Source: Antitrichia curtipendula (lineage: Eukaryota > Streptophyta > Bryopsida > Hypnales > Leucodontaceae). From it: a stretch of 64,000 bases of DNA. The stretch covers positions 11,178,696 through 11,242,695 of the forward strand of contig OX579638.1 in the NCBI GenBank assembly GCA_951230915.1. The letters run 5' to 3'. The notes below the pieces were generated by a model. That model was given only the letters and a program-made list of their open reading frames with translations. It searched no databases and was not told the DNA's origin. Shown here in pieces: positions 15,569 through 59,600 of this stretch (positions are counted from its first letter, which is position 1; each line of letters starts with the position of its first letter). The translations under genes were made by a program, and so were the position numbers.

Positions 15569-15622
15569 TAAAAAAGCCCTGATATTGAGTTACATGGGGT
15601 GGATAAACAAGTAGGCCAACCC

Positions 15623-15629
15623 TATAAAA
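15623..15629 (+). promoter_or_regulatory. Candidate TATA box of RPL18a copy A
   Basis: TATAAAA lies about 250 bases before the start codon, inside the conserved unit shared by both gene copies (the same motif is at 51,680-51,686). Downstream of it are AGCCCTAA, a telo-box-like motif common in ribosomal protein promoters, and a pyrimidine-rich leader. The role is inferred from position and motif only. Confidence 0.4.
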
Positions 15630-15872
15630 TTCAGCAAAATAATGTATTGGTTGGCCCGGTGGCAACGCTCTAAACGGAGAGATCCACAGGAAGTAGAGAG
15701 TGAGTTTCAGTGCCCGCTACCTAGTGTGAACGCTGACCCCAAGCCCTAATTTCCGAAGCGGCTGCTTGAAAGCCCTCATCGTTCCTCTCGCTCGCTCTTT
15801 TCCAAGCGTGCCGCGTCGGGAGACAGGCGCTCTCGATTACATTGCATTTCGGGGATTTCTCAGCACGCAGTC

Positions 15873-17376
15873 ATGACATTCCGGGTGAGTAATCCTCGTT
15901 TCTCTTTTGTGATGCTGTAACATCTTTTTGTGTAGACGAAAGCACCGTGAACGCTAGGGTAATTTTGTTAGGGTTCTGGTGTTATGAGTCCAGCAATTTT
16001 GTAAATACCAACAGGATCAGACGTATTCATGTTCATTTTCGATGTGATGGGTGTGCAATACTTTTAAGAATGGATATCGTGATGGAAGATTTCTCGGAAT
16101 CCTGCATTTTCCTGCACGTTCGCAGAGTTTTTACTTGCATTTGAGGTGTCTGATCGTGTCAGTTCCTTGCTGTAACAGTTTCACCAGTACCAGGTGGTGG
16201 GGCGAGCCCTTCCAACTCCCGCCAAGGAGACCCCGAAGGCTTACCGCATGAAGCTGTGGGCCACCGACGAAGTGCGCGCTAAGTCGAAGTTTTGGTACGT
16301 CCTTGCCTCGCTTATTTTCCAAGTGTTTGGGTTCGTTATTTCAAGCTCGTTCTTCGGAAACTTATCATTACTCCCGTAAGAAATCATCGACTGGATTGTG
16401 GCTAAGCTGGTCCATACTTTTTTTGAATTGTATCTTGAGGTGACCTTACTATCAAATCTCTGATCCGTTTTATGAATGCTGTTGACGTGGTTTGTGCTGC
16501 ATTTGATTTCTCTTTGGTTTGGGTGGACGCGGTTGCTTTGCAGGTACTTCCTCAGAAAGTTGCAGAAGGTGAAGAAGTCTCACGGTCAGCTCTTGGCTAT
16601 CAATGAGGTACCTGGAATTTCTGTGCTGCATATTTCTCATTGCATATTTGATGCCGATGACTGATCCCCAGCAGTGGCATTGAGCGATGAAGAGAGACAG
16701 TATTCCGAAGTCGTTTTTAGGGTAGTCCATATTGCCAATCATGGCCTATCAAATAAGTATGCAGAAGTTTTTTTGAGAATCCTTGAGGTTCAGCGGATCC
16801 GCTGGATGTAATTACTCAGTCGTTCAAGACCGTCCTCTCTTTAAAGTTCGATGCGTTGTTACGAAGCTGTCGTCCTTATGCATGCTTGGAGTATTAGGCC
16901 TTTACGAATTCTGATGCTTATTTTGAATGATAGTTTATGTTATAGTAATATCCAGAATAGGTCAGCTGTTTAAGATGAAAGTAAATGGAGAAAGTGTACG
17001 ACTTGCTGCTAAACGACCTTATGTTTATCTTCAGATTTTTGAGAAGTACCCCACCACCATCAAGAACTATGGTATCTGGGTGCGCTATCAGAGCCGGACC
17101 GGCTACCACAACATGTACAAGGAGTACCGAGATCTGACTCTGAATGGAGCGGTGGAGCAGATGTACGATGAGATGGCTTCTCGTCATCGGGTGCGGTCGC
17201 CTTGCATCCAGATCATTAAGACTGCAACTATTCCAGTATCGCTCTGCAAGCGTGAGAACACCAAGCAGTTTCATAATTCCACAATTAAGTTCCCATTGAC
17301 CTACCGCAAGATCCGCCCACCAACCAGGAGCTTGAAGACCACATATAAGGCATCCAGGCCCAACACCTTCGTGTAG
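15873..17376 (+). CDS. RPL18A: 60S ribosomal protein L18a (eL20), copy A
   Basis: Cytosolic large-subunit ribosomal protein. Four exons: 15,873-15,884, 16,179-16,294, 16,544-16,607 and 17,035-17,376, all with GT-AG introns. They join to 534 nt coding 177 residues, about the length of plant L18a. The product starts [16 protein letters not shown] and keeps diagnostic segments such as [57 protein letters not shown] and [12 protein letters not shown]. The start is the only ATG that places [10 protein letters not shown] near the N terminus; exon 1 is just four codons. No damage is visible. Its unit (15,570-17,820) is nearly identical to copy B, introns included. As a housekeeping gene it is probably expressed. 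Confidence 0.96.
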
Positions 17377-17823
17377 ACATGCGTTTGCTGAAGGGGTATG
17401 CCATAGTTGTTCTTTCTGTTTGTTTCATACGGGGATCAGTAAAGCTCTGGAGCCACCCAACATTCAAGTAAAGATGTGCCGGTTCCTATTCTTTTATGGG
17501 ATGTCCTCCGGGAATTGTTTTGATTTCTCTTTTTGTTCACTGCAGGGTACATTGGTTTAGTGTACTCATTCTTTTAGTTTGTGAGAATGAACTCTTTCCT
17601 CGACAATTGGTAGCTGGAACTGTGTGGAGAGCAATTGTTTTCGCTTAGGATGAATCTTTGCACTGTTTGAAACCAGTGCGACTTTTACAAAGGAAGTCCT
17701 GTGGCATTATTTAAGCGCATGTTTGAACCTTCAAGGACTATTTTTTTTCCCAAGATTTCTAAAGATGCGAAGGAACGTTTTATGAAGGACCACTTAGACT
17801 AAGAATATAATGATGACGCTTGA

Positions 17824-24093: not shown

Positions 24094-24108
24094 CATGGGG
24101 AGGGGGGG
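24094..24108. repeat. Left target-site-like direct repeat of the MULE
   Basis: CATGGGGAGGGGGGG lies directly outside the left terminal inverted repeat. The same string, with a longer G run, lies directly outside the right end at 37,397-37,414. It is longer than the usual 9-11 bp MULE duplication; the core could be CATGGGGAG with the G run a property of the target. Confidence 0.7.
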
Positions 24109-24152
24109 ATTGCTATTTTGCGTGCATAGATATGCGAGCGTAGAGCATAGAG
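24109..24152 (+). repeat. Left terminal inverted repeat of the MULE
   Basis: It contains the 15-mer TGCTATTTTGCGTGC (24,111-24,125), matched exactly in inverted orientation at 37,377-37,391, and gagcgtagagcatagag (24,136-24,152), matched at 37,357-37,373 with one mismatch. The spacer between the two matches is 10 nt here and 3 nt on the right. The motif GCGAGCGTAGAGC is repeated again just inside. Confidence 0.8.
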
Positions 24153-24989
24153 CATAGATTTGCGAGCGTAGAGCGGTTTTAGTTAGTTAATTTCGGGAAT
24201 GCGGGCGATAAAGTTAAAGTTATAGAACATTTGAAGTGTTTTAACTCTAGAAAATTATAATAATGACAGGCTTATGACCGTGGAGTAGGTTGCAGGAATA
24301 TGACTAAGAGCAGTTTTAGATCGTAAGTACACTTACCATATAGAAGACGGAAGTCGCAAGTATCGGCCATATAGTCCTATAACCGTGATGATAAGGGTTA
24401 TAAGAGGTGAGACGATATCATATGTGTGGTTCCGGATTGTAGCAAGGAGAAGACTAAGGAGGTATTGTTTAGGGGATTGCAAGAGGTAGGGAGAGTACGT
24501 GATGGAGAATGGGCGCGCAAGAGTGAGGAAGAGCAGCTACCATGGTGGTAGCGTAACAGATTTTCTGTCGGTTTAGCTTATGTTCAGGATTTACAAGGCG
24601 ATTTAGAACAATTTAGGATGCGATTTTAGGGTGGATTTAGGGTTTAGGATTTTAGGAAGCACTTAGAAGACAGACAGAGACTACGACCACAACAACGGAG
24701 ATGGATTTAGGCATTCAAGAAACCAAGAAGGCTTAGATATGAGACAAACATTTAGGATTTAGGGTTTAGAGTCTCATGCCATGCAGCAGTACGATGAATG
24801 AGAAATACTCCAAGAACTTCTATAGGGTTTGATAGTGGAGCAAGTTCACAACAACAAAAGCTGCTTGCACAAATTTGGCGGTGGCCCTTCAAGTCTCACC
24901 GCCTTCTCTTCAAAGTAGGGGAGAGGATCACATTACGGTAATAGAACTATTCTTGCTCACTATGCACCGTAGTGTTTTAGTAGCAGAAT
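24153..24989. other. MULE left subterminal region, noncoding
   Basis: This holds subterminal repeats (CCTATAACCGTGA at 24,376-24,388, related gaccgtgg and cggttata motifs) and a stretch at about 24,600-24,780 rich in GATTTAGG and TTTAGGG-like words. It is downstream of the transposase stop codon on the minus strand and presumably holds its 3' untranslated region. No protein is supported. Confidence 0.5.
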
Positions 24990-27900
24990 CTATAGAATCT
25001 GTTTGATCTCATTCCAGCTGAAACTAGGAGCGTGCATGAAAACATTTACCTCCGGATCTAACCCACAAACAATGACAAATATGTAGTACAGGTGCTTATA
25101 ATACGTCCATGCTCCTCGTTTGCCAAGTGACTTTTGTGACATGTCTTTGAACGATGGACACTCGCAGTTTGGGAATTGACCAATTGTCAGTAGATACCTG
25201 GATACCTTAGAAATATTTTGAGACTCTAATGTAACAATGCAGCCAAGAGCTGGAGGAGGAACCATTAAAATATTGCAGATCTCCCCGACAATGGACAGAG
25301 CAGAAGCGCAGTTGTTGTGGTGCTTCGTTGTTGGAGCGGCAGTGTTCCTCCGAATGTTCTTCCCGTATTGCTTGGTGGGGTGATCTAAAGGATTCGAAGG
25401 AGGAGGATAGTCGCCCAGGTTTACAGAAGTGCTTTCTCCAAACAGCTTTCGAGGGGATAGTTCGGCGCACTCCATAAGGTGGAATCCGGCGTTTTCAAGA
25501 TTTAGAATCTCTTTCATTGTCAAGTTTGTGCCCATTTTAACAGGCCAAACATCAGGGACGACAGGTTTAGAAACAACCCATTTCCGCCGAGTTCCATTCA
25601 CACAGCGATTGATGTCATCATTACAGAAGAAGAACTGCATTTTTTCCAATTTGACCTTCTTGTAATTGTCCATCAAGCCGGTGTAAGTTGGGGCAGCTGT
25701 ACTTCGATTGTCCTGCACTATCTTTGCCACGCATTTCTTTTTGGTCTTCACCTGCAGAGTGAAGCAGGCTTTTGCAGATGTCTTTGGGAGCCTTGCTATA
25801 TGCCATTGGCGTTCATCGCAAACAGTTTCCTGAACTGATTTGGCATGTTTTGCTGGAGAGTGAGTCGATGGTGACTTTAGTGAGGGAGCAGTGCCTTCTG
25901 TAGGGCGAAATTTGAATTCCGATTGTGGGTCCTCGGCAGTGAGGTCAACAATCTCTGGATTGAGCCGCTGAACCTTGCGTCTTGGGGGCGAGACACTAAT
26001 CCTGTTAGGGCGGTGTGAATCAAATTCTGATCCCAGAGGGAGATCTCCCTTTCGCTTCAAGGAAACAAAAACTTCCTCCCCTTCCAGATGAGGTTCACGT
26101 GTGCAGAAGACGTTAGCACCAGGCATATTGGCAAGGGCGGCATGAAGAACCTTGGAATTTTCAGAGCGTTGAGCTGTACGAAGACGGAGTTCTTCTTTAC
26201 CCGGGCCAGTACCTGGCTTTTCACCCTTCAGAAATTGGTAGTAGGCAACTACCTGCATGAATGCTCTGACCATGTCATCGACGGAAGCAACGTACAGATC
26301 ATTCCCTCTTTTGCCTGACTGTTGCAACCACTTGTTGTGGATTGTCTCCGCCAAATTACATGACGGCATCTCGGCCAATTTGGGTGGTGAAAGGTCCTGC
26401 ACGCAATCCTACATGATGAGAATTGAAACGAGAAACAAGGATACAGAACATTGAGTGATTAGAGAGGAAGACATGCAAGAACTGCCACTACTGAGGACTA
26501 GTGCCGATATCGGCATGACGACTGCAGGGTGCGTGAAATGAAGAAAAGAATCAAATGAAGCTTGCTCTTACCAGTTCCATGAAGCCTCCCCATTGGCGGT
26601 AACAGAAATGCCAGAATGCTAGCCATAAGTCAAGTCTTGGAAGTCCATCATCGGTTGAAGCTCCAGATGATAACCACCATGCACGGATGGCCAAATATCT
26701 GGTCTGAGCTTCCTCCAATGATACAGAGTTCTTGTATTGTTTACAGAGGCGTCGATGTTGATCCTGCAGGTCGACTCGGATATCTGCTTTAGTGTGTTTC
26801 TCCAGTGATTGGGTCCAATGGAAAAGGCAAGTCCTCTCGCGGTTGATCATAGGGATGGTTGAGTCACCAGAACCATACACAATGCGTACAGCATTCCAGT
26901 TTGCCTGTGCACTGTCAGCTATGAATCCCTTAAAATTTGGATTAATAATATCATGCCTGGAAGACACAGCATTCACATTCTTCCAGAACACTACTTGAGC
27001 TGCCACATCTTCAGATTGCATGTCGCAAACAGCAATCGTCATAACGCGGCAATATGTGGAGTCATACACGTGACAAGCCATTGTGGTCCAAGACTTCACC
27101 CGTTTGACATGGTCAAACATCATCCAGGCGTTTTCCAAATCACCTCCGGGCTGCATACGGCTGACCAAGTCGACCCCACTTCCGGAGCCCAACTCTGCCA
27201 TCTTGAAAATGAAGACCTTGTCAGACTCCGATCCTTGTCCTGGAAACCTGTTCTCCTAGATGAAGGCCCAGTTGCTTAACCCTCTCAGTTTGGTTATGCT
27301 ATCAAGAACTCCAAATCGATGAAGGTATCGGAAAGTGGTGACCTCGTTTCGAATACTCGGAGACGACATTTGTTTAAATTTGTCCAGGACAAAGATGAGT
27401 TCCTCAATCGCCAGAGTTTTCTGAGTCCCACCTTCCGGACATAAAAGTAGTTCGCCTAGGTACTCCTTAGTCGCCTCAAGGACAATGGCAGAGTTTGTCG
27501 CTGATGGAGCCCTTTCTACATGTTCGCCAATAAGACTACGGAGTTTGGCAGCTGACTCTCGATAATTTCCTTGCTTCACAGGATGTGAATGAAATCCGAG
27601 ATGGATATAGACACGAGTCATGTGACTTGGACCGTAAACATAATATATCTTGGCAGGGCAACTATCTATGCAAGTAGGCTTCACAAGGCAGAGGGCACAG
27701 ACAAAAGTAGAATTGGAAGGGGGGGCCGATCCGGGAACAAAGGCAGACGACGCAAGACCGTCCCATTCAGTTTCATTTGACGGAGTCAAACGGTTGGGTC
27801 GACTTACATATTCGCAAGCGGAATTCGTGCATCGTAGATGTCCCAAGCAATTAGACAATCTGAAGGAAAGTGCAGATGTTGACTGGATATGCGTAGTAGT

Positions 27901-28683
27901 TGTTCGAGTCCAAGCGTGTCCATCATCCTTTTTATCCATGCCATGCAGCTGCCCAGCCTTTGTGGATAGCGGATACTTCCCCATTGGAGGGAGCTCGAAG
28001 ATAATATCACCATTAAAGTCTGGTGGCAAATACTCTACCTTCTCTATCGTAATAAGATTGTAATCAATCTTACTAAGAATTGACCTAGCGCCCTTCTTGA
28101 TACTCAACTGGCGTAGGCAATTAATGATACTCTCAACAGGTGGCAAGGGAGGCTTAGAAGTCGATGGACCTGAACGACGATGGAGGCTTGACTGAAGAAC
28201 GCAAGGTTCATACTCGGCATGGGGTTCTACAGGGTGAGGAGCAGTAAAGTCATGCGTAGAATGGATGCAGTCACTATCAGAATCATCACTAAGAACATGG
28301 ACAGGACCATCGACATGCTCTAATTTAACGTTTCGAAGCATTGGAGTGACCTCTGATGTTACAGAGGAATGTCTAGTTGTAGAATGGACTGAATTGTCCT
28401 TCACTCCATACACGCGATAGTTTCCGGGTGTCAAAGACCAAACTCCACCGTCAAGAGAGTCAAATGCCATCTGCGCTACAGTGTGCGAGACCTGCCTCGT
28501 GACTGGGTTAACAACATCCAAATCTAAATGCAAAGTACCTTCCATAATCAGAAACCTAGAAGCCAAACGAGAACCACTAACTCTGGCAAAGCCATCCTCC
28601 CCCACGATGAAGGAAATAGGCACTATTGCATCATCTCCTCGAATTAGAACCGTATTCGAGCTTGCATCCTCTGAGGTAGACAT
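24990..28683 (-). pseudogene. MULE-type transposase, broken by one in-frame TAG
   Basis: Conceptual protein of ~1,176 residues in two exons: 28,683-26,572 and 26,408-24,990, joined across a GTAAGA...TAG intron in phase 0. The ATG at 28,683 opens the frame. Residues 285-367 form a Cys/His cluster (C285, C290, C329, C332, C338, C342, then HLGFHSH at 361-367), like the GCM/WRKY-related zinc modules of MULEs. The DDE core follows, with KGFIADSAQANWNAV (D near 590) and RTCLFHW (C619, H622). Near the C terminus CECPSF ... YYKHLYYI (1119-1141) resembles a SWIM finger with its third Cys replaced by Tyr. Codon 476 is TAG (27,258-27,256); the frame continues unbroken on both sides, so CAG-to-TAG is the simplest reading. 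It would catalyse cut-and-paste transposition of the host element. Confidence 0.8.
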
Positions 28684-29541
28684 GACAAACCTAACTCTGC
28701 AGGCAGCACTACCACGAACATGTACGCTGGGTGCAAAACGTGGAAGAAGAAAAATTACATGATATAGTTCCGAGATTAAGTAAACTAGGCATGGAGGACT
28801 ACGTCAGTACAATTTTCTCATTTCATAGGTAAAGACATGTAGTCACTCATTAAGACAATGTAGTACTTAACAAACCTGGTAGTACATGTTCCATTCAATT
28901 AGTATCCGTTCCTAGTTACATCGAAAACGTTGAGATCCACACCCAGATTAAAATCGAGGATGCTGCGCGATTTACAAAAATTTAATGAGACACCATTTAA
29001 GAAGTATGCTTGGTTGTAAGATCAGTCCCTCATTTCTTTTATTAACCGCGAACCACTTCTTGAATAGCTACAACAACTCTTGTTGTAATTTGGAACCCGT
29101 AAGTCTATAACAATTTTTTCAGTAATTGGGGGAACTGCCTCACGACAACCGTCAACCGAAGTGTCAGAATATTTAAACCCGGAAATTGGTACAAGGACCA
29201 TTCCTGCATAATTATAATTACCTCCATGACATCCATCATAACTTGAAACGAGTTATAACGGCGCAACGGATTTGATCGAACCGACCTGTTCCTAATTATG
29301 CTCGGCCCGCCGGTATGGAATGTTGCCATTACTGACTGTAGCTTCAGCATTAAATCACTAATCATCCTTCTTTACTGGCATGTTTGAAAAATTTAACACC
29401 CCATTGGACAACGTAACAATGTTTTTACGGCGCAAGCGTTGGAAATAAAACGTAAATTACTTTGTTAATACACATAAATAGATATCTGTTAATTAGTATT
29501 GTAGACAGTCGGAGTGACATTGAATTCTTGCAACCTTTAGA
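28684..29541. promoter_or_regulatory. Divergent intergenic region between transposase and ParB-methyltransferase genes
   Basis: This is the 858 bp between the two start codons of head-to-head genes, so it should hold both promoters and possibly a shared one. I found no clear paired TATA boxes or other motif I would name. The open frame at 29,365-29,105 on the minus strand looks incidental. Confidence 0.5.
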
Positions 29542-30354
29542 ATGCCAAAGAGACAAAAACGGCAAGCCCTCTATTTTACAAATCCAAAGCGCCTGAAGAA
29601 GTCTAGGATAATGAGGGAGTTGCGATCAAATGCACGGATAATAGATGCAGGGCAAACTGTTAGAGACCTAGAATGTGATAGTGGACAACTATCAATTAGC
29701 GAAATGCAGGTTCTTCCCTCAGGTAGCCTTATAGAAATTGCAGAGGAAGAGATGGGTCGAGGAGATCCCGATAATTCCTCAACAGCCAATAGCGAAAGCG
29801 GAAGCACACCAGATGAGTGCGCTGGTGATCGAGCAGAAGGATCAAGTAGAGAGACCACTCCAGAGCAAGGTAATGTGACGATTAATTTGTTGGTTCGTCT
29901 GTGAACATCATTGTTGATGTTCATGAAGGAATTCTATCCAGTACCTTTCACATTGAGTAGGGGGGAGTAACCCATCACCTCATGTTCATGTAATTATCAA
30001 TATTCCGCCGTTATTATCCATTTGCTGCAGACTCTGAGCAGGTTGGAGTGAAATGAGGTTTCACAACTTTGGGACACTAACATTGACAGGGACAATCATC
30101 CACCTTCACAACTTCCTAGGATCTCAAACGCTGGATATGCTTAGCGCAGAACTGACTTCAATTTTCAAATGGTTCTAGCTAGGAGTCAAGCCGAAAGAGT
30201 GATCTCCGAAACGGGAATTGAGGCCCACGGTTTGTGCTTTGAGTGCGCTAGATCGATTTCGTCGGGGCAGATTGCCTAAATTACAGATACTGCATTTCGG
30301 CGGCTTGCAACCTTGGGTTCAATAAGTGTTTATCACTGAGCTTCTGGTCCACTG

Positions 30355-31440
30355 GAATTTGGGCGCCGAGATCGAGCGGAGACGGCAGGGCTCAGCAGGG
30401 ACGAGCGGAGGGGATGGAACGTGCGACCGAGACCGCAACATGTGACCGGGGGAGTGCGAGCGTGGGATAAGAACGGGAGAGTGAGACCGCAACATCTGAC
30501 CCGTCGAGCGCGCAAGGTCTGAGCGGAGAGGTGAAAGCGCTAGAAGAGTGTGGGAAAGCGAGATCGCAACATCTGCCGGGCGAGAGCGAAAAGTCTCACC
30601 AAGGGAGGCCTGAGCGCTGGGAGAGCTGGAGAGAGCGAGACCCCAACATCTGATGGGGGGGCGTGAGCGGGGGGGGGGGGGAGAACGGGAGAGCGAGAGC
30701 GCAAGGAAGGAGTAAGCGGGGGACAAAAGCGCTCGGACAACGAGACCCGAACATCAGAGCGGGCGGGCGCGCAAGGTCTGAGCGGGAGGACGTGAGTGCT
30801 GGGTGATCTCGTGAGAGCGAGACCGCAACATCTGAGCGGGGTGCGAGAGCGTGGGGTGAAAAGGGGAAGGCAAGACCGCAACACCTGACCAGGCAAGCGC
30901 GCTAGGTCTGAGCGGGGGGGCGAGAGTGCTGGGACAGCTGCGGAGAGCGAGAGCGCAACATCTGACCATGGGTGCGCAAGCTTTGAGCGGTAAGGGCGTG
31001 AGCGTCGGATGTCCACGGTATAGAGCAAGACTGGAACCTCTCAGCGGCGAGCGAGAAAGGTTGGAGTGCGAAGGGCGTGAGCGCTGGGAGAGCGAGACCG
31101 CAAAATTTGTCCGGGGCTGCGTGAGTGTGGGGTGAGAAAAAGAGAGCGGGACAGCATTATCTGACTGGCCGAGCAGTTTAGATCTGAGCGGGAGGGCCGT
31201 GTGCACAAGGAGATCTCGAGAGAGTGAGAATCCAACATCTGATTGCGGGTGCTTGGAACGTGGAGAGGGAACGGGAGACTGTAACCGCACAATCCGAGCG
31301 GTGGGGCGGGAGCGGAGAGCAGGACAGGAGGCCTGAGCGGGGAGAGAGAACAGAAGAGCGAGAAAGCAAAGATTGAGCGGCGTTGGTTGAGCGGTGGGCG
31401 TTTTAGGAGCGGAGAGCGGAGCAGAGAGCAGGGCTTGGGA
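30355..31440 (+). repeat. Degenerate purine-rich tandem repeat in intron 1
   Basis: About 1.1 kb of imperfect repeats built from modules like gagagcgagaccgcaacat, ctgaccggg, gcgcaaggtctgagcgg and gagtgctggga, recurring every ~50-60 bases. The plus strand is rich in G and A, with G runs up to 13 long near 30,670. It lies wholly within intron 1 (29,870-31,575) of the ParB-methyltransferase gene. Long Ser/Arg/Pro open frames on the opposite strand (for example 30,754-31,560) are by-products of the repeat, not genes. Confidence 0.8.
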
Positions 31441-31764
31441 AAAGAGACAGTTCTGACATAAGTGGCACATTAAAAAATTGGATTTCAGTATTGTTGCGAC
31501 AAAGATTCCAGTGATAGTTTGTTTGCTGTGTCCCCTTGACCGCTCAATTTTGTTTCTCAATTTTGGTTCCTACAGGTGTTGTCAAGATGCATACTTCCTC
31601 CAATACCATTGTGAGCACGGAGAACAAGGGTGAGGACATTTCAGAGACTAATCCATCTCCAATCACCACGGAAGAAGCGCAGATGGAATGCGGCAGCAAA
31701 GAAAACGATGAAGACACAACGAACACAACGGGTAAGACTTCACATTCTTTTATTTGTGGGATTT

Positions 31765-31915
31765 GGAATAAGCTTCGGGGTGCTGCTATCGACACTCTGC
31801 CTTCAGTTATGGGCACTCTGCCTTGAGTTATTGGCACTCTGCCTTGCTGCTATCGGCAATCTGCTTTGAATTATTTGGAGTAAGCTTCGAGGTGCTGCTA
31901 TCGGCACTCTGCCTT
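31765..31915 (+). repeat. Short tandem repeats in intron 2 (GGCACTCTGCCTT type)
   Basis: The word ggcactctgccttgagttatt and close variants recur about five times, interleaved with two copies of aagcttcg-ggtgctgctatcg. They sit within the intron between exons at 31,576-31,731 and 32,165-32,251. Confidence 0.6.
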
Positions 31916-31989
31916 AAGTTCAGCCCCCCCTTAGACGGGGTGCCGATGGCGGCACCCCTTCTAAAGGGGCGCTGCCGACGCACGCAACA

Positions 31990-32033
31990 CCCCCTTAGAC
32001 GGGGTGCCGCCATCAGCACCCCGTCTAAGGGGG
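31990..32033 (+). repeat. Perfect 18-bp hairpin in intron 2
   Basis: CCCCCTTAGACGGGGTGC (31,990-32,007) is followed by an 8-nt loop and its exact reverse complement (32,016-32,033). A related imperfect copy lies just upstream, about 31,930-31,972, and each is followed by GGGGCGCT-xxC-GACGCACG. The GC-rich stem would be very stable in RNA or single-stranded DNA. Confidence 0.8.
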
Positions 32034-35000
32034 CGCTATCGACGCACGGAACAACCCTGTGGAAAGGTGCCATCGGGTATTAAAATGTCTTGGGTCCTTC
32101 TGTGCTACTGAGGATTTGAACGCCAGGAGCCTTTCGATTTCTGAATGGTTATGTCTTCGTGCAGGTCCATCGGACGATTTGACGGATCCTGGACGGAATA
32201 CGCTAAGGGGTGGGCTGCAGTCTTCGTCACAGCCGGACATTCTCGACTCCGGTGTGTATTCTTGACACCAATTTGCTAAGTTCTGCCATTTTGATTTGTT
32301 TTTTCTCACACTGTTTGTTTTGCAGAGGAACTGGAGAACGAGGATGTTGAGACCCCCGAGGACGCTCAAGAAGCAGAGAAAGCATCGACGGAGATGACAG
32401 CCGAAGAGCTTGGCAAGGAAATGGACAAAATGGTCGTGCAGGAGTCGGTCAATACCAATGTTGTCCTGGACAAGCTCCGCTTCAAGCCAAGGGAGAAGTC
32501 GAGACTGAACATCCCGCTCTGCCGGATGAAAGCTCTTGCTACAGTTCGCCCGTACCTAAAAAATGACGTTATGGCACTAGGAGCCCATTTTGTGAGTACC
32601 GGGTATATGGACGGGCATGGTGTCTTTTATGTGGCCTTGCAAGACAACGAGGGAAATACACAGGACGTGACGGACGAGGATGTGTCCAGTTGGAGTCCAG
32701 CCTGGGTTGCTGCAAACCAGGACTTCGAGAGGGAGCTGGAGAAGGAGGACGCCTGGAAGCAGTTCTTGGGCAAAATGTTCTTCGTTTGGAACGGCAACCA
32801 TTGACTTGCGGCCTGGCTGCCAATCATAAACAGAAATCATGGAGATGACGCGTCCTGGCATTATGCGGTTGAATCTATTGTATTGGAGGTTGAGGGCCAG
32901 AACGGTCCACTTCTCACAGCTTTGCACCAAGTCAACTGGTAATACCCAACTCACTTTCGTGCTGGTTTCTTTTCTTTGAAGTATGTTGTTTGTGTAGTTC
33001 TAATCGTTATTTACTGAAACAGGAGAAACCAGACCTGTCACGTGAAGTTAAATCTTGTACACAAATTGTACCGGCTTCAGAATATTGCTGGCCAACCCCT
33101 GTTGTATTACGAGAATCTCGTAAGTAAGGAAGAGCTGGCTAACACCGAGAAGAAGCAGAAATCGAAGATTTGCACTTGGTACACCCTGACGCTCAACGGG
33201 CTAATTAGCGTTCTCTATCAGGTATGGTTCACATTCCTTAAATGTGATCTAAGATTGAGCCCATTTCCTTTTTTGAATGTTGGCTGCCCCGTTTCCCCGC
33301 TCCCTTTTCCTGGTTGCATTTGATATTCTCAAAATTTGGGCTGCCGATGGCGGCCGTCTATTTCAATGAATGTTTTGCTGAACTCTTTGTTATCTTCTTT
33401 GGGCTATTAGCGCTGCTCGTTTGACCTTCTCAGTTTTGGTCCTAATATAAATTCCCCTTTCACCATTAACTTCAAATAGAGTTTTTTTTCTTTGTTTTGC
33501 AGCAAGAGCTGGGTGAAGCAGTGGCTCATGCAACCAGGAAATTCAAGGAGAAGTATCCAGAGAAATCGAGTGAATGGACTACTGGGAAGCTGTATGATGT
33601 CATTGGGAAGGCTGTGGATAAAGTGAAGAAGGATATGTCATCCGATGTGAAGAAACAACTCCCCATTGCGGATCCAAGGCAAACACCAGCTTTCTTGGAG
33701 CAAGTTCGTATTCATCATGAGAACCGGGAAGACGATCCTGAGATGTCCCAGGAGAAGTTGTGGTATCTTTCAACCTCGATGATGGACGCGGCAATAAAAG
33801 TCAAATGGCTTGAGCGGTGGAACAAACCTGCATCGCTTCGGAAAGCAATGAGGTTCCCGAAGACCAAGTTTCCTGATCATGCTTTCCCGGACTGGCTTCA
33901 CAAGGCCACTTGGTGGGCTCAGGTACCTTGTTTACTTTTTCTATAGTATTTTGAACTCTGTCCTGGACTCGTTACATTTGTTACTAATTCCATGTTACAG
34001 TTGGCAAGTGCTGTGCAGGAACTTTTCGATGCGACTCTCTCTGAGCTGGATGTCACGATCAGTTATCAACCTCCTGGCGAATCACCAATTCCGAGCATTG
34101 GTGATTATGTGGAACAGAATCAGATTCAGCTTTGGGATACAGCATTTTCCCATGAGTTTGATGGCAAAGGTGTTCACAAGAATCATCCTCCTGAGTTCCA
34201 AGTTGGTCTGGATAAGGCTGTGGCACGAGTTCTCTACCGATATTTTAAGTTCGTGCTGTATGCACGAAACGCTACAGCCAAGACGCCATCCTTCTTCCCG
34301 AGTTACTTGGACAGACGTGTTGAGAATTGCATGATATCGGATGAGATCGCCAAGAAGTGGACGAAGGAGCACTGGGAAGTGTGTGGCTAGTATATATATT
34401 GACTGTCCTCTCAACAATCCTCCTCCCTATGAGATTGATTTGAAGAACAAGGTGCAACCGGATTTGGCTAGATTGAAGACGGTGCATGACACTCCGATGG
34501 GGGCACCTGGCAAGAAGACAAGGGGCTCGAAGAGAAAGGCCGAAGAAGAAGCAAGAAAGAAGGCGGCCTCAGATGCAGCGGCTGCACTAGAGAGTGATGT
34601 AATCGCTGTTGGGAGTGCCAAGAAGACTGCCAAACCGTCTACAAGTCAAGCAGCGGATATGGATACGGATGTAGAAGTGTTAGAGGTGATTCAGCCCAGG
34701 GCTCCGCTGCTCACTCCTGGTGGTGCTCGAGATGCCCATGTTTCTGCTCTTCACGGGCTGTCGAGCCTACTATCACTTCTTACGCAGAGGTTGAAGAGCG
34801 CAGTTACCTCTCGGAAAGCAACTTCGTCATCTGGCTCTTCCCTCAAATCCTTAGTGTGTGTTCAGAATTCCAGCCTCTCTCAGATTATGGAAGCTCTTCC
34901 AGATGTCCACGCTTGCCTTGAGACGCTCAACAAGTTTGTTCTGAAGGTTCGTTTTCTTATTCATGAGTTACACTTATGTATTCCTCTAAACTAGCCTGCC

Positions 35001-36479
35001 CAGTTATGGTTTGTTACTGTTGTGGAAACTAGCCAGTGCCGGTACATAGTTATCCACCGTTTGCGTCCTTGTCGCGTTGTTGGAAAAGCATTCAGTTACT
35101 ATACTTTCACAGGCAATTGAGTTCCGAGTGCAATTCGGTTATGGCATTTTGAACTAATGACGTCCATCATTTTCAATCTCCAGATCAAGAATGAAGACGA
35201 GACAAAGGCTTTGAATAAGTCTTGTCCTCATAGCGGCTTTGATTTGATTCTTGGCGATATTAATGATGGCCTCTGGGTTCCGTCCATTTCCCAGAACCCC
35301 GGGGATGTCCCGGCATAGAATGAGTACTCTGAGCAACACACTGAAAGTGTTTTTGAGTTTGGGGAACATTTTCTTCATGGAGCGGGTGCAATTCTGTTGT
35401 TTGTTCCAGATGTTCCAATGATCCGGACTGATGTGCTGTCGTATGCAAATGGCTACAACTTTGTTCTGCACCGGGAGTGGTGGGGGATTAATGACTTACC
35501 CTCTGCGTCGTTTTACAACCCAAACAATAAGGTAACTTCTCCTTTAAATCAGTTATTCTGTTCACTGCATTGTACCGAATAATTTCTACTTGTTCTAATT
35601 CAATTTCATCGCAATCTCCATTTCCAGAGCAGAGGATTCCGGATTCAGCTCTTCATTCACCGCGCCTTGGATTCTTGCGAATTCACGGTAGCGACCAATG
35701 AATCACTGGCGGAGTTCGGAATGGGAGTATCTGAATTTGATGTGTTATTCAACTTCACTACTGCAGCCTCTCAGTCCATTAATGGATCTGTTCCGTGAAG
35801 AGGCGCCCGTGAGAAGGATCCAATTTTTCTTCAAATGCTGATCGAGGCGTTTACCAAGCCGGGGTCCATCATCCTTGATGCATTTGCTTCTATTGGTGAG
35901 TATTCTTTATTCTTGTGTTGAGTTTCTCTCATATTTTGGGTCCTTTTTGGATCATCTCTAATTTCCTTTATCCAAATCCAGGTAATTCTGTTCGAGCTTG
36001 CAAGGTTATTGGACGGCACATTGCCGCCCTAGAGTCCGACATCGTGGTCTTCTGCTCTATGTTGCAGCCGTTCCAACAGGTTGAAGCTACAGCTCCAATT
36101 CAAATTCACGCTTCCGAGTCTCCATCTGAGATGGCACTAGACGTCCCTATTCGGCATATCACTAAGAAGAACAGATTTAGTAAGTACATCTCCTGCCTTA
36201 TCCTATTCGCTTGCATTCTTATGTTCGTGATCATTTTACTAACCCACACTCGTTTGGCTCAGAGTGATCACTGTACTCCCTTCTCCGGCCAAAGACTATT
36301 TCATGATGCCATGGGACGCAGACGCCGCTACGTTGCAGGCGACAGAATCTACTCCGACCTCCACACACCCCTATAGATGGTTTAGTAGACGCGTTCGTCG
36401 TTTTATTGATGACGAGGCAGACGTTGATATGGAACCAGGACCAGATTCTTCTGGTAGTTCGTCAAATTTTTCATTTTGA

Positions 36480-37356
36480 TGATATCTATATTACCCGGAT
36501 TTATTGTTTGAGTTGTATTCACCCACATACATCTTGTGCTTTCATTTGTAATGTTCAGCGTCTATATATTTCAATGTGATGGTTCATCTTAGCATCCATT
36601 TAGAGTGCATTTGAATTTGGTTGTTTACCTTAAATGTATGAATTCATGAAAGTCTTCCTGGCTTAGGCTACTGTCTGAAATTCTAAGGAATAAATTCAGC
36701 TTACATTATATTTGAACTAGCCCCTTTGAAATCTGAGGAAGTTCTTTCTGTGAAGTCTCTGTGATTTCATTCTTCACTTTGTTCAGAAATTTGTTGCAGG
36801 CTGTTTTCTCTAGCATGGGTGAATGCATTCACAATATAATTTTTATGAATGGATGTTGTGGGAGTACATTTCTTTTCTCTTCAGTACTGGGAAAAAATGA
36901 CCATAATGTCCACTTCTTTATGCATCTGTTGGAGAAAGTCTCGTGGTCACAGTCTTTTAAAGAATATAAGATGGTTCGAATCAAATTAATGGTTTGATAA
37001 TATCCAGAGGTAGGTTAGTTTATTTTTGGAAATTCTTTGGTGGCTTCAAGATAACTTCGGGCTTAGGATAACAACGACTAATGGATATTAACGACCATAA
37101 GGTAACAACGGTCATAGGGTCCGTACTCAACTTATTCGAGAAGACATTGATTTCTACCATTTCATCGAGCTCTGTTGCCTATTACCGTGGTCAATTATTT
37201 CTCACATTTGACTAACCTCACGGTTATAGGGTCGTACTATTGTACTTCATTTTTTATTTTTACCTTTTTGGGGGGCTTAGATTTTATCTTTTACTTTTAC
37301 TTTTATAAAATATGCCCATTTGCGGAAACTGTGGGCTTCAAAAAGTACACTCACCA
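36480..37356. other. MULE right subterminal region, noncoding
   Basis: This lies between the end of the ParB-methyltransferase gene and the right inverted repeat. From about 37,080 it contains repeats of the ccataaggtaacaacggtcataggg and cacggttatagg type that match the left subterminal region in inverted orientation. No protein is supported. Confidence 0.5.
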
Positions 37357-37396
37357 CTCTATGCTCTGCGCTCACCGCACGCAAAATAGCATCGTC
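37357..37396 (-). repeat. Right terminal inverted repeat of the MULE
   Basis: Inverted partner of 24,109-24,152; see that entry for the matched words. The last element base is taken as 37,396, just before CATGGGGAG. Confidence 0.8.
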
Positions 37397-37414
37397 CATG
37401 GGGAGGGGGGGGGG
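37397..37414. repeat. Right target-site-like direct repeat of the MULE
   Basis: CATGGGGA followed by ten G, matching CATGGGGA plus seven G at 24,094-24,108 on the other side of the element. The G-run length difference is the kind that slippage gives. Confidence 0.7.
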
Positions 37415-39346: not shown

Positions 39347-41305
39347 TTATTTACCGCGGCGTGGCTTCTTGGAACTACTACCGCCTTGGTTCAATGTACC
39401 CTTGGGGTTTGCTTTGACTGGTGTCGAACGAAGAGCTGCACGAGTCTGGATTTTCCGCAAAAGGGGCGGAGAATCCTCATCCGTCTCCGTTGCCGATCCG
39501 GTTTCAAACTCCTCATCTTCCGAATCTTCAATGCACTCCACATTCGTCGTCTTTCCAAGATCCGTCTCCTCCAGGTCGACCATTACACTATCCCTGTTCG
39601 GCATCGTCTGCTGCATGTGTGAAAAATCCGCCGGGTGGGTACGAGCCGGATTCGTTAAGCCCCCGATCCGGTCAATCAGGTCCCGACGAGTCTTCCGACT
39701 TGCCAAGGAAACTGATCCCGCCACATTCGATGGAGTTGGTGATACGTTCCGGATAACAACAACTTCCGGTTGTACCGGAATCGTCTTCGCCGCAGCTTCT
39801 CTTCTGGCTTCAACGGGAGAGAAAACAGTCGTAGTCGTTGCTTCCACTTGGGTTGCGGAAACTCCTCCAGTTGGTCTTAGAAGGGATCTCAGACCTTCGG
39901 ACTGAGACTGTGTCAATCCGGTGGTGACGTTCTTCACTGGGGTTGTCATAAACATCGATGTCGGAACTTCCGGAAACTGTGAGAAATCCATCGCCTTTTC
40001 CAGATCCAGATGTCCCAACAACTTGTTCATCTCCCTCAGTACTCCCTCCATTTTGGACTGAAAGTCGACCAAGATGGTTACCACCTTGGATCCGGTGATG
40101 TATCCTTCCTTCATCAGTCGATCACTGAAAAGGTGGGATCGTACTACGATTTCCGCCGGTTGTGTGACTAGTCCGGATAGATTCCGGACCAGTTGAAGCG
40201 CCTCTGCCTCCTTTTGCCTCGCAACCCCCAGTTCTCCTTCCATTCAATTGAACCGGGTCCGCAGATCGTCTCGCTCCTTCTCCAAGTTCCGGATTTGCTC
40301 GTCCTTTGCACGTAGAACTTCCGGACTAGGTCGTTTCTTGATCTCCTCGACGAGTTTATCCGGCTCGACCTTGACCTCGTCCATGATCTCGATAATCAGA
40401 TCGGACATGTTATCATGCAGATCGCGGGCCTGTCGCATCCAGGTCATTCCGGCTTCATAGAACTTGGATGTTCCTTCTCCTTCCGGAGCCAATGGAGGCT
40501 CTCCTTCCTCTGGAAGCGGAAGCTTTCCTCTTGATCCCGGATCAGTCGACTTCCGTCGCCTTTCTCTCCGTTCTAGCTGTTCCGTCCTGTCTTCCGGAAC
40601 ATCTTCCTCCTCAGAATCCAGATGGACTTCTTCAACCTCTCCTGTCATGCCATACTTTAAAAGAGTCGCTCATGTATCGTACGCGACCATCTCCTGACTG
40701 CTTAGGACTTCTCTCTGATGGTAAAGGTGAAAAAGATACGGGCTGATGAGACTATGTTTCCCCTTTGCCACATGCTCCGCTAATTTTGTCACTACTGCGG
40801 CAATAACCCTTCCCCAGTGTACCAATCTATCTTCTAATGCACCAAAGATGGTGTTGGCAACTGTAATAGTAACCCGGGTTGGCTTTTCCGGATACAAAAT
40901 CGGAATGAGAAACTCTAGTACTCGTCTGTGCCTGTCATCTCGGCACTCACTAATCGCGTATCCCTCTTTGGCATTGGCCGGACTACGGAACTTTCCGCTC
41001 GCATACTTATCCGTACTAGAAGCTAATCCAGATCCGGTCTTCTTGAAACCGTATACTTCCGCCCATACGTCCTCATTCCATGCGACGGGCCGACCCCTCA
41101 CAGTCAACTCGTATTGATTCGGAACTCCCAGGATGAGTTCCTGAATCATTTCGTCACTCTTCAGATTCCAGGGCCTCCGAATGAGTCCTCCGCACCCTAT
41201 GCGCATTAGGTCTTCCTCTAACTGTTTCCGGGCATTCGCGTCGGAAGGGATACCGGGACAGACCATTCGTGCTACGACCGTAACCTTACGACTACACTCC
41301 GCCAT
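39347..41305 (-). pseudogene. Unknown transposon protein, frame broken by two TGA codons
   Basis: One continuous frame of ~652 codons from ATG 41,305 to the stop at 39,347, interrupted by TGA at 40,672-40,670 and 40,246-40,244. The same frame is open on both sides of each stop, and CGA-to-TGA explains both. The N-terminal third is globular (segments WNEDVWAEVYGFKKTGSG and LISPYLFHLYHQREVLSSQE). The middle is acidic and then coiled-coil-like (RAKDEQIRNLEKERDDLRTR, ARQKEAEALQLVRNL). The last 200 residues are low complexity with an acidic patch (CIEDSEDEEFETGSATETDED) and a basic end (KKPRRGK). I do not recognise the family; there is no visible transposase triad, integrase or reverse transcriptase. 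Its place inside the inverted repeats suggests a structural or DNA-binding role in that element. Confidence 0.65.
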
Positions 41306-41780
41306 CTTCACCGACACGTACTGTAGAATCCGGTGCAATTGGCACCGTCCTCACTTTCCACTCTTTGTCGCGTTCTAACTCACCACTCTTTCACTCTCTA
41401 CTTGCGCTTGCAGGCAGCAGCGGAAAAAGAGAATGAGAGTGTGCTGCGGAGGGGTATATATACCCGGCGTTCGGCCGACAGTTCCCGGTGGAGAACGGGA
41501 GTTGGGTTGTTCCCGTAACGGTCTCCTAGTTCTCTAGGCCGGGTCCTCGGTAGTAGGTTCTGATCATCCGGCTGGTTTCTGGATTCCGGATTTGATCCTA
41601 TTACGAACTGTTTAGACTTTAAACTAGTATTAGCAATCCGGAATTTAGTTATCCTCTCCTTACGTTCTAGTCTTTCCGGATTGCCCATTCATACACAAAA
41701 AACTGAAAAATTCTAGCCTATTCTAACCTTATTCTAGTCTATTCTTCTCACTTTTGAATTTCCGTCACACGACAACGTCT

Positions 41781-51626: not shown

Positions 51627-51679
51627 AAAAAAGCCCTGATATTGAGTTACATGGGGTGGATAAACAAGTAGGCCAACCC

Positions 51680-51686
51680 TATAAAA
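51680..51686 (+). promoter_or_regulatory. Candidate TATA box of RPL18a copy B
   Basis: TATAAAA at the position equivalent to 15,623-15,629, in the shared unit. Position and motif are the only evidence. Confidence 0.4.
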
Positions 51687-51929
51687 TTCAGCAAAATAAT
51701 GTATTGGTTGGCCCGGTGGCAACGCTCTAAACGGAGAGATCCACAGGAAGTAGAGAGTGAGTTTCAGTGCCCGCTACCTAGTGTGAACGCTGACCCCAAG
51801 CCCTAATTTCCGAAGCGGCTGCTTGAAAGCCCTCATCGTTCCTCTCGCTCGCTCTTTTCCAAGCGTGCCGCGTCGGGAGACAGGCGCTCTCGATTACATT
51901 GCATTTCGGGGATTTCTCAGCACGCAGTC

Positions 51930-53433
51930 ATGACATTCCGGGTGAGTAATCCTCGTTTCTCTTTTGTGATGCTGTAACATCTTTCTGTGTAGACGAAAGC
52001 ACCGTGAACGCTAGGGTAATTTTGTTAGGGTTCTGGTGTTATGAGTCCAGCAATTTTGTAAATACCAACAGGATCAGACGTATTCATGTTCATTTTCGAT
52101 GTGATGGGTGTGCAATACTTTTAAGAATGGATATCGTGATGGAAGATTTCTCGGAATCCTGCATTTTCCTGCACGTTCGCAGAGTTTTTACTTGCATTTG
52201 AGGTGTCTGATCGTGTCAGTTCCTTGCTGTAACAGTTTCACCAGTACCAGGTGGTGGGGCGAGCCCTTCCAACTCCCGCCAAGGAGACCCCGAAGGCTTA
52301 CCGCATGAAGCTGTGGGCCACCGACGAAGTGCGCGCTAAGTCGAAGTTTTGGTACGTCCTTGCCTCGCTTATTTTCCAAGTGTTTGGGTTCGTTATTTCA
52401 AGCTCGTTCTTCGGAAACTTATCATTACTCCCGTAAGAAATCATCGACTGGATTGTGGCTAAGCTGGTCCATACTTTTTTTGAATTGTATCTTGAGGTGA
52501 CCTTACTATCAAATCTCTGATCCGTTTTATGAATGCTGTTGACGTGGTTTGTGCTGCATTTGATTTCTCTTTGGTTTGGGTGGACGCGGTTGCTTTGCAG
52601 GTACTTCCTCAGAAAGTTGCAGAAGGTGAAGAAGTCTCACGGTCAGCTCTTGGCTATCAATGAGGTACCTGGAATTTCTGTGCTGCATATTTCTCATTGC
52701 ATATTTGATGCCGATGACTGATCCCCAGCAGTGGCATTGAGCGATGAAGAGAGACAGTATTCCGAAGTCGTTTTTAGGGTAGTCCATATTGCCAATCATG
52801 GCCTATCAAATAAGTATGCAGAAGTTTTTTTGAGAATCCTTGAGGTTCAGCGGATCCGCTGGATGTAATTACTCAGTCGTTCAAGACCGTCCTCTCTTTA
52901 AAGTTCGATGCGTTGTTACGAAGCTGTCGTCCTTATGCATGCTTGGAGTATTAGGCCTTTACGAATTCTGATGCTTATTTTGAATGATAGTTTATGTTAT
53001 AGTAATATCCAGAATAGGTCAGCTGTTTAAGATGAAAGTAAATGGAGAAAGTGTACGACTTGCTGCTAAACGACCTTATGTTTATCTTCAGATTTTTGAG
53101 AAGTACCCCACCACCATCAAGAACTATGGTATCTGGGTGCGCTATCAGAGCCGGACCGGCTACCACAACATGTACAAGGAGTACCGAGATCTGACTCTGA
53201 ATGGAGCGGTGGAGCAGATGTACGATGAGATGGCTTCTCGTCATCGGGTGCGGTCGCCTTGCATCCAGATCATTAAGACTGCAACTATTCCAGTATCGCT
53301 CTGCAAGCGTGAGAACACCAAGCAGTTTCATAATTCCACAATTAAGTTCCCATTGACCTACCGCAAGATCCGCCCACCAACCAGGAGCTTGAAGACCACA
53401 TATAAGGCATCCAGGCCCAACACCTTCGTGTAG
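51930..53433 (+). CDS. RPL18A: 60S ribosomal protein L18a (eL20), copy B
   Basis: Exons 51,930-51,941, 52,236-52,351, 52,601-52,664 and 53,092-53,433, each exactly 36,057 bases from its copy A counterpart. The 177-residue product is identical to copy A. Over the shared ~2.25 kb unit I found only three differences: T/C in intron 1 near 51,985, and A/G and C/T in the 3' flank near 53,744 and 53,832. Introns therefore match as well as exons, unlike the diverged DNA outside the unit. Upstream, the block A direct repeat is replaced by the A-rich SINE-like insert. Both copies look functional; conservation of promoter and UTRs implies similar expression. Confidence 0.96.
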
Positions 53434-54212
53434 ACATGCGTTTGCTGAAGGGGTATGCCATAGTTGTTCTTTCTGTTTGTTTCATACGGGGATCAGTAAA
53501 GCTCTGGAGCCACCCAACATTCAAGTAAAGATGTGCCGGTTCCTATTCTTTTATGGGATGTCCTCCGGGAATTGTTTTGATTTCTCTTTTTGTTCACTGC
53601 AGGGTACATTGGTTTAGTGTACTCATTCTTTTAGTTTGTGAGAATGAACTCTTTCCTCGACAATTGGTAGCTGGAACTGTGTGGAGAGCAATTGTTTTCG
53701 CTTAGGATGAATCTTTGCACTGTTTGAAACCAGTGCGACTTTTGCAAAGGAAGTCCTGTGGCATTATTTAAGCGCATGTTTGAACCTTCAAGGACTATTT
53801 TTTTTCCCAAGATTTCTAAAGATGCGAAGGAATGTTTTATGAAGGACCACTTAGACTAAGAATATAATGATGACGCTCAAGCAGAAGTTGTAAATTGCGA
53901 TTTACAAGGTGGAGTAGTTCATTCTAGACGATTTGCTCACCATGGACCCCCATGAAGTGGTCCAAATAAATTTTGCATTCAATCTATAACGAAGACTCTT
54001 TAATTCATGAGATTTTGGCCCCAGGGGTTGACGTAGTGGCTGCAAATAGTATTTGGTGATTGTGATGGATTGGAGTGATTTAATGATTGCAATAGAAACT
54101 TCTATGCCTTTGATTGTAAAATCATTGTAGAAAGTGGCCATTTTAGGGCCTTGATGTTGTGGTAATCTAGGAAATATTGTAACCTGGTGGGTGTTTTTTT
54201 TCATTTTTTCTG

Positions 54213-56640: not shown

Positions 56641-59600
56641 ATGGCGACATTGTCCACGCCGTGCGTTTCCCGCTTCTTGGCGTCGCCTCACTTGAGACGA
56701 GCATTGGGCGAACGCATTCGAGTCAGAAGAGCGGTACAATGCCGCATTCCGAAGTTGCGGGTAAGTGCCGTGAGAGCACAGGCTTCCGTCGCACAGGACC
56801 TGCAAGGCTACTGGCAACATGTTTATACCTGTAATGCTGGCCAGGTAGGTTTCATGCCGCTTCTGTTTTTTTAGGGTTTAGGGTTTAGGGTTCAATCGAA
56901 TGCACTCTTTATGCATTCAGTAGCAAAAATTGGTGACTTTCTTGCACTCTCTGTGTATTCAGTAGCTGAAATTGGTGACATCTTTGCACACTTTATGCAT
57001 TCAGTAGTTGAAACTGGTGGCATCCTTGCTCTCTTTAGTTTCAGTAGCTGGAATTGGTGGCGCCCTTGCACTCTGTTTGCATTCTGTAGCTGAACCTTGT
57101 GTCATCCTTGCAGGAAAGGCAGGTGGAGTTCCTACCCTTTATTCTCGAAGACAGCACAATTGGTTACATCCATCCGAGGTAAGCGCCTGGAATTAGCTTT
57201 GTGTTTGGTTACGATGAGCTCTACCATTTCCATCGGTGTCTTATATTCAGATGTTGTGCTGAATTGCTCACTGCTCTTGCGGAAGCTCAATTGTGCTACC
57301 TCGTGTGATGCCAGATTTTTGAAACATTTGAGACGATTTCCTGAGGTGTTTACTTTCCGTGATGATGAGGACAATGCGAAGAGTAAAGGCTGGGTCACGC
57401 TGCACGAATTACTTCAATCACCCAGAGAACGCACTGATGCGATTGAAAGTGTGTTGCGCTCACTGGAATTGGAAGGTCTTGTCCCTGGATGGCGCAATGA
57501 GGTACTTTCCAATCAAATTCAAGAGTATATAAGTTAGGAACATCATCAAAGGGAAGAGGATTCCAATGCTCTGAAATGCATTATTTGGATAGTGGATTCA
57601 AACGTTCTGAGGGTCTGAAGTTTTCTTGGTAAATGACCTAAAGTTGACACTTGAACAGATGTTTGTGTGGTCAACATTGGGAGGCCTTTGTATAACCATT
57701 CTGACTATAGAGGGGCCTCCTCATGAATCAAAAAAGAAGATTCTCTTTAATGATGTTGTCTGATATTCTTGAAAGAAGCTGATTTTACAGAGAACCTATT
57801 TTCGTAGCTTGTAATTCTAACGTATTGCTCAGACATTTGATCAGCACTAATGTTAGATAGTTATATATGTAACAGCTCGTGTTGCTCTTGTTGCTCCTGG
57901 TATTCATGTGCAGCATTACCCAGTGGTGACCAGTTTTGGAGGACGACCTCTCTTCACTTTAGAACGTGCAGCTGTTCCGTTTTTTGGCACGAAAGTACGC
58001 TTCGTTTCCACTTTACCAGGCAATCTACACAGTTTGGTGCAGTTTCCAATCTCCCAAGGCTAAGATGCACGTGAGGTCTTATTTTCTTCTGGTTGCAGAA
58101 CTCTTTCAGCTGAGAACTCGATGAGTCACTTTCCCTTGCAAATAGTCTCATGTGATCTAAACTAAGCAGGCATATGGGGTTCACATGAATGGCTACGTTC
58201 AAGTTGATGGAGAAAAGCATCTTTGGGTTGCTAAGCGTAGTGCGACAAAGCAAACCTTTCCGGGCATGCTTGACCATCTTGTTGCCGGGGGCCAGGTCAG
58301 ATCTTGTCCGCTTTATTCTTGAATTATCTTTTTGTCCACTTCAATAATAATGATATTTAATGTTATGTTACATTTAATGTTACTTACTCTGTCACCTGAC
58401 TCACTCTAGTTCTCATTTAATTTACAAATAGTGTTCAGTGTTGGTAACAGCAGTGGTATTCATGACATTCAGTGCACTACATGTCAACATGAACACTAGT
58501 AAAGATTACAATAGTTGGCAATTAGTGTAGAGAACTGAATGTTGACACCAGCTGACCTCTTAATAGCCGGCATCTTTGAAGCACAAATTGCTGCAACTCC
58601 TACTGACTGCTTCCAAATCCCTCCAACTTCTGTTGGTGCTAGTTTTGGAGAATTTGCATCCCTTTTAGTACTAATCTAGGTGTTGCATTTTGGATGGTAT
58701 CTCTTTTAGGTGTACCCTAAGGTCCCTGTGAATTTTCAAATTCTAATCGGGTCTGAAGAGGGTTCCGTCTTGTCCTTGTATTTGTTCTTTTTATGATCAG
58801 TCTGAAGGAATTGGCTGCAAGGAGAACCTTATCAAAGAATGTGACGAGGAAGCTGGAATACCTGCAGTTCTTGCTGCCAAGTATGTATCTTTAACTCTTG
58901 TCCGTTGACTTCCTTGTTATTGTTTGAATACTTCACTTCTTTCCACCAGATAGAATGAATATCGACAGAATTTCTTGCTGACAGAGATTAACTTAAGCAA
59001 TGAAATCACCAGAGGTCCTTCAGAAATTCAACTTTTCTTGAGGTACCTTGGTATTCTTCAATTTCGAATGAAGAAAAGGTGTCTTGTGTAGGGCTACCTC
59101 TGTAGGAGTTGTCACCTATGAGCAGATTAAGGGGGAAGCGTTCAAGAGAGACGTTCTCTTCTGCTACGATCTAGAGCTGCCCACAGATTTCCAGCCTTCA
59201 AATAAAGGTATCAATCAGAAGCGCTGTCCTCTCTCTTTAACTGAGGTAGAGGTACTATTTGCAGCGATTTAAGCATTTTAACATATGTTGAGTGTGATTT
59301 TTTGGGAGATCAGTATAGACCTGTAGAGAGCATTTTGGGGGTACAAGAGCGAACATGGTGGGAGGTTGTAGTCCACTATTGACGGTCAGTAGTCAATCCC
59401 AATTCCATTCAAAGACATCTAGCCTATTCATACTTACACCACTTACTGATAAGTCAAACACCACATAAGTTGGCAACAGGGGTCAGCATTTAAGTGGGAT
59501 CAGTTCTGTATACAATCACTATAAAAAACTAGAGTTTTTTTATGTCTAAGTTGATGGATTTTAGGTGACATTGAATGTAACATGTGTTTTTATGTCAACA

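Follow-up and report, generated by a model that had tools for sequence, protein, structure and literature searches.

ParB-methyltransferase accessory genes have been published for algal transposons, so this class of gene is already known (PMC12477816). The closest described system is Sola1-1_Ec32 from the brown alga Ectocarpus, a 21.5-kb transposon of the Sola1 superfamily that encodes a 1104-aa protein with a ParB-like domain and an N4C/N6A methyltransferase domain; similar green and red algal transposons are cited in the same paper. The element described here is a Mutator-like element (MULE) of Antitrichia curtipendula (Bryopsida), located in a stretch of 64,000 nucleotides of contig OX579638.1 (assembly GCA_951230915.1, positions 11,178,696 to 11,242,695, forward strand), called the window below. 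It holds a transposase gene and a partner gene that is ParB-like and amino-methyltransferase-like. As in Sola1-1_Ec32, the partner-type gene and the transposase occupy opposite strands. By comparison with the published description, the element differs in being a MULE of a green plant with 10-bp target site duplications, in having a partner gene of about 1229 codons, and in lacking the standard catalytic motif, which is missing from all 16 copies read.

MULEs with an accessory gene are represented by the VANDALs with VANC (PMC10398659, PMC5735166, PMC13317346), which also resemble the present element in having noncoding candidate repeat arrays that differ between subfamilies. However, VANDALs are called MULEs without terminal inverted repeats in these sources, whereas inverted ends are present here, and the partner is a ParB/methyltransferase-like protein for which binding and an anti-silencing function are proposed. 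Maize MuDR (mudrA/mudrB; PMC6446971) is likewise an autonomous MULE combining a transposase with a second gene; mudrB encodes a protein of unknown function, whereas the partner protein here consists of two parts in which motifs can be recognised, and its gene has array-bearing introns. Dinoflagellate and charophyte retrotransposons with DNMT genes (PMC5890265) are also mobile elements carrying a methyltransferase-family gene, but these genes encode C5 cytosine methyltransferases with shown activity, while the present element is a DNA transposon with a protein of another methyltransferase class, which is probably non-catalytic. Phage fusions of ParB with a DNA modification methylase (L002–L005) have a ParB N-terminus and a methyltransferase C-terminus, to which the ParB-like and methyltransferase-like parts of the partner would correspond, and they share its order of motif IV before motif I; unlike the partner, they have intact DPPY and GSG motifs, and their ParB part shows no sensible sequence match to it. 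The first-pass annotation of this DNA had stated that no MULE with a ParB-methyltransferase was known. A literature search, incomplete for subscription papers, indeed found no such MULE, nor did it find the missing motif, selection evidence or arrays reported for such elements; the algal transposons of other superfamilies narrow that statement to MULEs. The present element extends this class of accessory genes from algal elements to green-plant MULEs, with evidence of long-term selection.

The element is a two-gene MULE, and many of its copies have both genes between their ends. Its boundaries, set by comparison with other copies, are 24105–37397, so the span of 24109–37396 first proposed is correct to within 4 bp. 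The main features are as follows.

24095–24104, no strand: left copy of the target site duplication, ATGGGGAGGG, identical to 37398–37407
24105–24174, plus strand: left inverted end, GGGGATTGCTATTTTGCGTGC, with two subterminal GCGAGCGTAGAGC repeats
24990–28683, minus strand: transposase gene, two exons (28683–26572 and 26408–24990), 1176 aa, one in-frame TAG at 27256–27258
28684–29541, no strand: gap of 858 bp, by the gene models, between the divergent start codons, a possible bidirectional promoter
29542–36479, plus strand: ParB-like/amino-methyltransferase-like partner gene with about 1229 codons in some 11 exons
37357–37397, minus strand: right end, reading inward GGACGATGCTATTTTGCGTGC
37398–37407, no strand: right copy of the target site duplication, ATGGGGAGGG, identical to 24095–24104

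Both genes are transcribed outward from the 858-bp gap, and each stops 0.9 kb from its end of the element. The ends contain a perfect 15-bp inverted pair, TGCTATTTTGCGTGC, at 24111–24125 and 37377–37391; the inverted match is longer if gaps are allowed. The window contains 52 distinct inverted 15-mer pairs, and a long direct repeat (15 nt) flanks none but this one; the repeats of the others are no longer than 8 nt with a search floor of 7. Two divergent genes within one pair of inverted ends, as first described, are thus borne out, and the 10-bp duplication of the window element lies within the 9–11 bp range of MULEs. A nested unit within the element was not detected by a script that required symmetric offsets; this is a weak negative, because that requirement makes the script miss the real ends too. 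Just inside the left end, at 24611–24770, degenerate TTTAGGG-like repeats of the plant telomere type can be noted.

Other copies were searched for in the host genome (400.19 Mb, 303 contigs) with the left 1.9 kb of the element, beginning at 24109, as a query. At least 46 rows were obtained with 40 of the 211 candidates scored, corresponding to about 39 places besides the window, and 35 of the 46 rows start at query base 1 or 2. Twenty copies, the top scores in three identity bands and not a random sample, were taken, with 5.9 to 15.9 kb read downstream of the left end of each, together with short left flanks. They were grouped by identity to the window into subfamilies A (93–97%), B (82–83%) and C (about 80%). 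What these copies reveal of the transposase is chiefly its 3' part; the middle of most of them (about 3.4–5.9 kb from the left end) lies outside the reads. Partner-gene sequence follows the transposase end in 19 of the 20 copies, in the same order and orientation as in the window. Both ends are present in 12, the right end falling at window base 37396 or 37397, and all 12 are flanked by 10-bp duplications, ten perfect (L041 being counted as such after its left boundary was shifted by one G) and two with one mismatch. The comparison of ends proposed in the first-pass annotation fixed both the boundary and the length of the duplication, and these 12 copies enclose both genes with duplications in the size range that it had named. 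As for the copies without a detected right end, five (L028, L033, L034, L036 and L043) are still within the partner gene or just beyond it no more than 0.5 kb from the edge of the read, and two (L038 and L039) lose similarity inside it.

The possibility that only the transposase lies between the MULE ends, with the partner gene in unrelated host DNA, could be based on a single copy, L026 (C1:33.50), which has the transposase side and in which the partner gene was not found in the 15.9 kb read. However, its similarity to the window breaks off near 29132 and no right end was found in the same read, which suggests truncation and not a closed element. MULE ends around the transposase alone were not seen among the 20 copies, and 12 copies close around both genes with 10-bp duplications, which refutes this explanation for the present MULE family with next to no doubt left.

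The transposase is of the IS256/Mutator RNase H type by which MULEs are recognised. It has 132 homologues at E ≤ 0.01, and the fold of one relative (P0001) matches the ISCth4 transposase; the window protein itself was not used for the fold match. A WRKY-GCM1 type DNA-binding domain and a SWIM motif are usual in MULEs; the SWIM-like CxC...YKH of the window protein has Tyr where its relative L001 has Cys. L001 is the only transposase relative in the bacterial and archaeal genome collection, where its 4.1-kb contig is filed under a cyanobacterium, probably as contamination. An IMG/VR scan with the transposase revealed no relatives. The window copy is dead, with one stop in the transposase and three stops (at 32802, 35316 and 35796) plus a frame break near 34382 in the partner gene. 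Thus, the two-gene organisation described in the first-pass annotation stands, while the copy has to be regarded as inactive and the start of the partner gene probably lies further upstream.

The partner gene was modelled from splice sites and open frames alone. It probably begins at 29542, with 858 bp separating it from the start of the transposase; the first exon (29542–29869) is predicted by splice phase, and matching sequence is present in six of the 20 copies, most of the others being unread there. Partner exons were matched in 19 copies. Sixteen copies have all nine exons; 15 of them contain a stop or frame break, and L041 is the only one free of both in exons e2 to e10 (assembled from tblastn pieces, with e10 covered to 83%). 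A 1046-aa partner query found no homologues in a search that used words from the first 500 residues and only candidates of similar length; an exon-sized query found eight homologous clusters. Single open reading frames of the window gave only weak Pfam matches, none above the cut-offs. The parts of the partner gene considered below are the following.

30429–31242, plus strand: repeat array of predicted intron 1, in which GAGACCGCAACATCTGA occurs ten times with at most 3 mismatches
31921–32048, no strand: palindromic repeats with the core GTGCCGN4CGGCAC in predicted intron 2, exact at 31940 and with one mismatch at 32004
32326–32938, plus strand: ParB-like motif exon (VWDGNHRLAAW in relatives, WNGNH followed by a stop here), with the eight homologous clusters
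35184–36179, plus strand: methyltransferase-like exons, with GDINDGLW at the motif IV position and LDAFASIGNS at the motif I position

The partner gene is under purifying selection in the pairs tested. In five between-subfamily pairs (702–803 codons; exons e2–e5 and e7–e9 pooled, stops skipped), dN was 0.078–0.090 and dS 0.69–0.95, giving a ratio of nonsynonymous to synonymous substitution rates (dN/dS) of 0.08–0.13; the pairs were chosen by hand and compared pairwise without a tree. For the ParB exon alone, dN/dS is 0.06–0.11.

The N-terminal part of the partner appears to be ParB-like, judging by a weak profile match and by the motif DGNHRL, which is kept in 19 of 19 genome copies (NGNH and a stop in the window copy) and in six of the seven homologous clusters that reach it, the seventh having DGNYRL. 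One of the eight homologues gave a Pfam match to DndB (0.0059). No relatives of the ParB exon were found in an IMG/VR scan.

In the C-terminal part, the motif order is IV before I, as in the phage ParB-methyltransferase fusions. Pfam matches to N6_N4_Mtase remain below the cut-off (8e-4 and 1.5e-4 in the window, 2e-3 to 8e-5 in three other copies) and cover motif I only; at this motif, PHROG (3e-4) and CcrM (0.0084) matches were also obtained. An hhalign comparison of the window methyltransferase exons with four phage fusions gave 6e-5, and the profile of these exons from 16 copies against the same fusions gave a weaker result (P 0.032). Motif I reads LDAFAS(I/L/V) or LDASASL; with the splicing of the window copy, GNS comes next across the exon joint. 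The catalytic (D/N/S)PP(Y/F/W) is absent at the motif IV position, as assigned by the flanking pattern, in all 16 copies with this exon, including L041; DINDG, NINDG, DIKDG, NIKDG and NIKDD are found instead. This argues against methylation, and a methylating role of the partner is not supported.

The 17-bp motif GAGACCGCAACATCTGA occurs ten times in intron 1 against 0.09 expected and nowhere else in the window, with recurring spacings of 53–54 and 77. Each of the five subfamily A copies that hold the region has 9–15 copies of it, whereas in the 14 B and C copies there is a single plus-strand match in one and a single minus-strand match in five. Tandem repeats were analysed in nine of these 14, and other arrays appeared some 1 to 3 kb upstream of the ParB exon: among five copies of subfamily B, four have a 59-bp unit and one a 44-bp unit; in subfamily C, a 21-bp unit in two copies and 10-bp and 52-bp units in one each. 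The 16-bp palindrome is common across the subfamilies. Its exact core was found 46 times in 17 of the 20 copies, compared with 0.15 in block shuffles that did not preserve dinucleotides; 36 of the 46 lie upstream of the ParB exon, and the cores are embedded in larger hairpin repeats. The arrays of intron 1 and the palindromes may be regarded as candidate binding sites. In four B copies (L030, L031, L036 and L037), a second exact core lies 996 bp after the start of the ParB exon, apparently in another intron.

We propose, with a probability of about one half, that the partner binds the element's own repeats as a non-catalytic methyltransferase-like reader, countering silencing or marking the element. 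The transposase would cut at the inverted ends, the ParB-like part would bind the intron 1 array, the 16-bp palindromes or both, and the methyltransferase-like fold would serve as a non-catalytic module. By analogy with VANC, occupying its own DNA would most likely counter silencing or mark the element for the transposase rather than methylate it. A more specific version, possible but rather doubtful, is that in this MULE lineage a ParB-methyltransferase fusion has lost catalysis and become a reader of arrays in its own gene, and that arrays and protein diverge together between subfamilies, so that every subfamily would have a self-recognition or anti-silencing system of its own. Several observations weigh against the proposal. 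The Pfam ParB family matched none of the eight homologues; the hhalign alignment of the ParB-like exon to a ParB profile lands on the motif but is weak (P 0.0065, 24 columns); and against phage ParB-methyltransferase profiles the exon aligned in the wrong part, with no sensible match. As a control, the phage fusions were compared with phage ParB and gave 4e-39; this is partly circular, because the ParB set was built by searching sequences that included the four fusions. The fold model of the ParB-like part (predicted local distance difference test score of 40) was discarded and has no bearing on its identity. The name ParB-methyltransferase is partly supported, by the conserved DGNHRL and the methyltransferase-like end, with profile matches that are sub-threshold or weak. 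Exons e6, which is outside the pooled figure, and e9 evolve faster (dN/dS 0.22–0.30 and 0.21–0.53, respectively), and the subfamilies are bands of identity alone. Functionless minisatellites and hairpin repeats also originate and drift in introns, and for this reason the divergence of the arrays does not show binding.

Other explanations can be set against the same data. The head-to-head arrangement with the transposase, the retention of the partner downstream in 19 of 20 copies and the purifying selection would suit a mudrB-like transposition cofactor acting in integration or target choice, with no role in silencing; in MuDR, integration apparently requires mudrB (PMC6446971). We consider this unlikely but worth keeping in view; it does not alone account for arrays that follow the subfamily. 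A working N4-cytosine or N6-adenine methyltransferase marking the element's own DNA, the role suggested for Sola1-1_Ec32 (PMC12477816), would agree with the motif order and with the methyltransferase profile matches. Such activity seems distinctly improbable given D/N-I-N/K-D at the motif IV position of every copy with the exon, ASxG at motif I instead of the GGSG of the phage fusions, and Pfam matches that stay below the cut-off and reach motif I only. Finally, MULEs capture genes (PMC13317346), and the stop or frame break in nearly all copies with nine exons would suit a functionless passenger of host or bacterial origin, as in Pack-MULEs. However, the gene is long and multi-exon, its dN/dS is near 0.1 across three subfamilies, and its ParB-like exon has relatives in eight other protein clusters; a passenger is therefore very improbable, the selection result in particular speaking against it. 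If the partner does read but not write, as we propose, the idea of an epigenetic modification of the transposon by such a protein of its own has to be reconsidered. With the arrays and palindromes, DNA targets are defined on which binding could be tested directly.

Elsewhere in the window, two copies of a ribosomal protein L18a gene (15570–17820 and 51627–53877) are 99.87% identical over 2251 bp, while their duplicated surroundings are mostly about 80–86% alike, which looks like recent gene conversion. Among PDB chains, those of plant ribosomes give the L18a protein its highest scores. On the minus strand at 39350–41350, two long open reading frames (298 and 226 aa) without a Pfam match possibly represent a retrotransposon gag-like unit. 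DUF4743 exons are located at 57094–58060 and presumably belong to a Nudix-hydrolase-like host gene.

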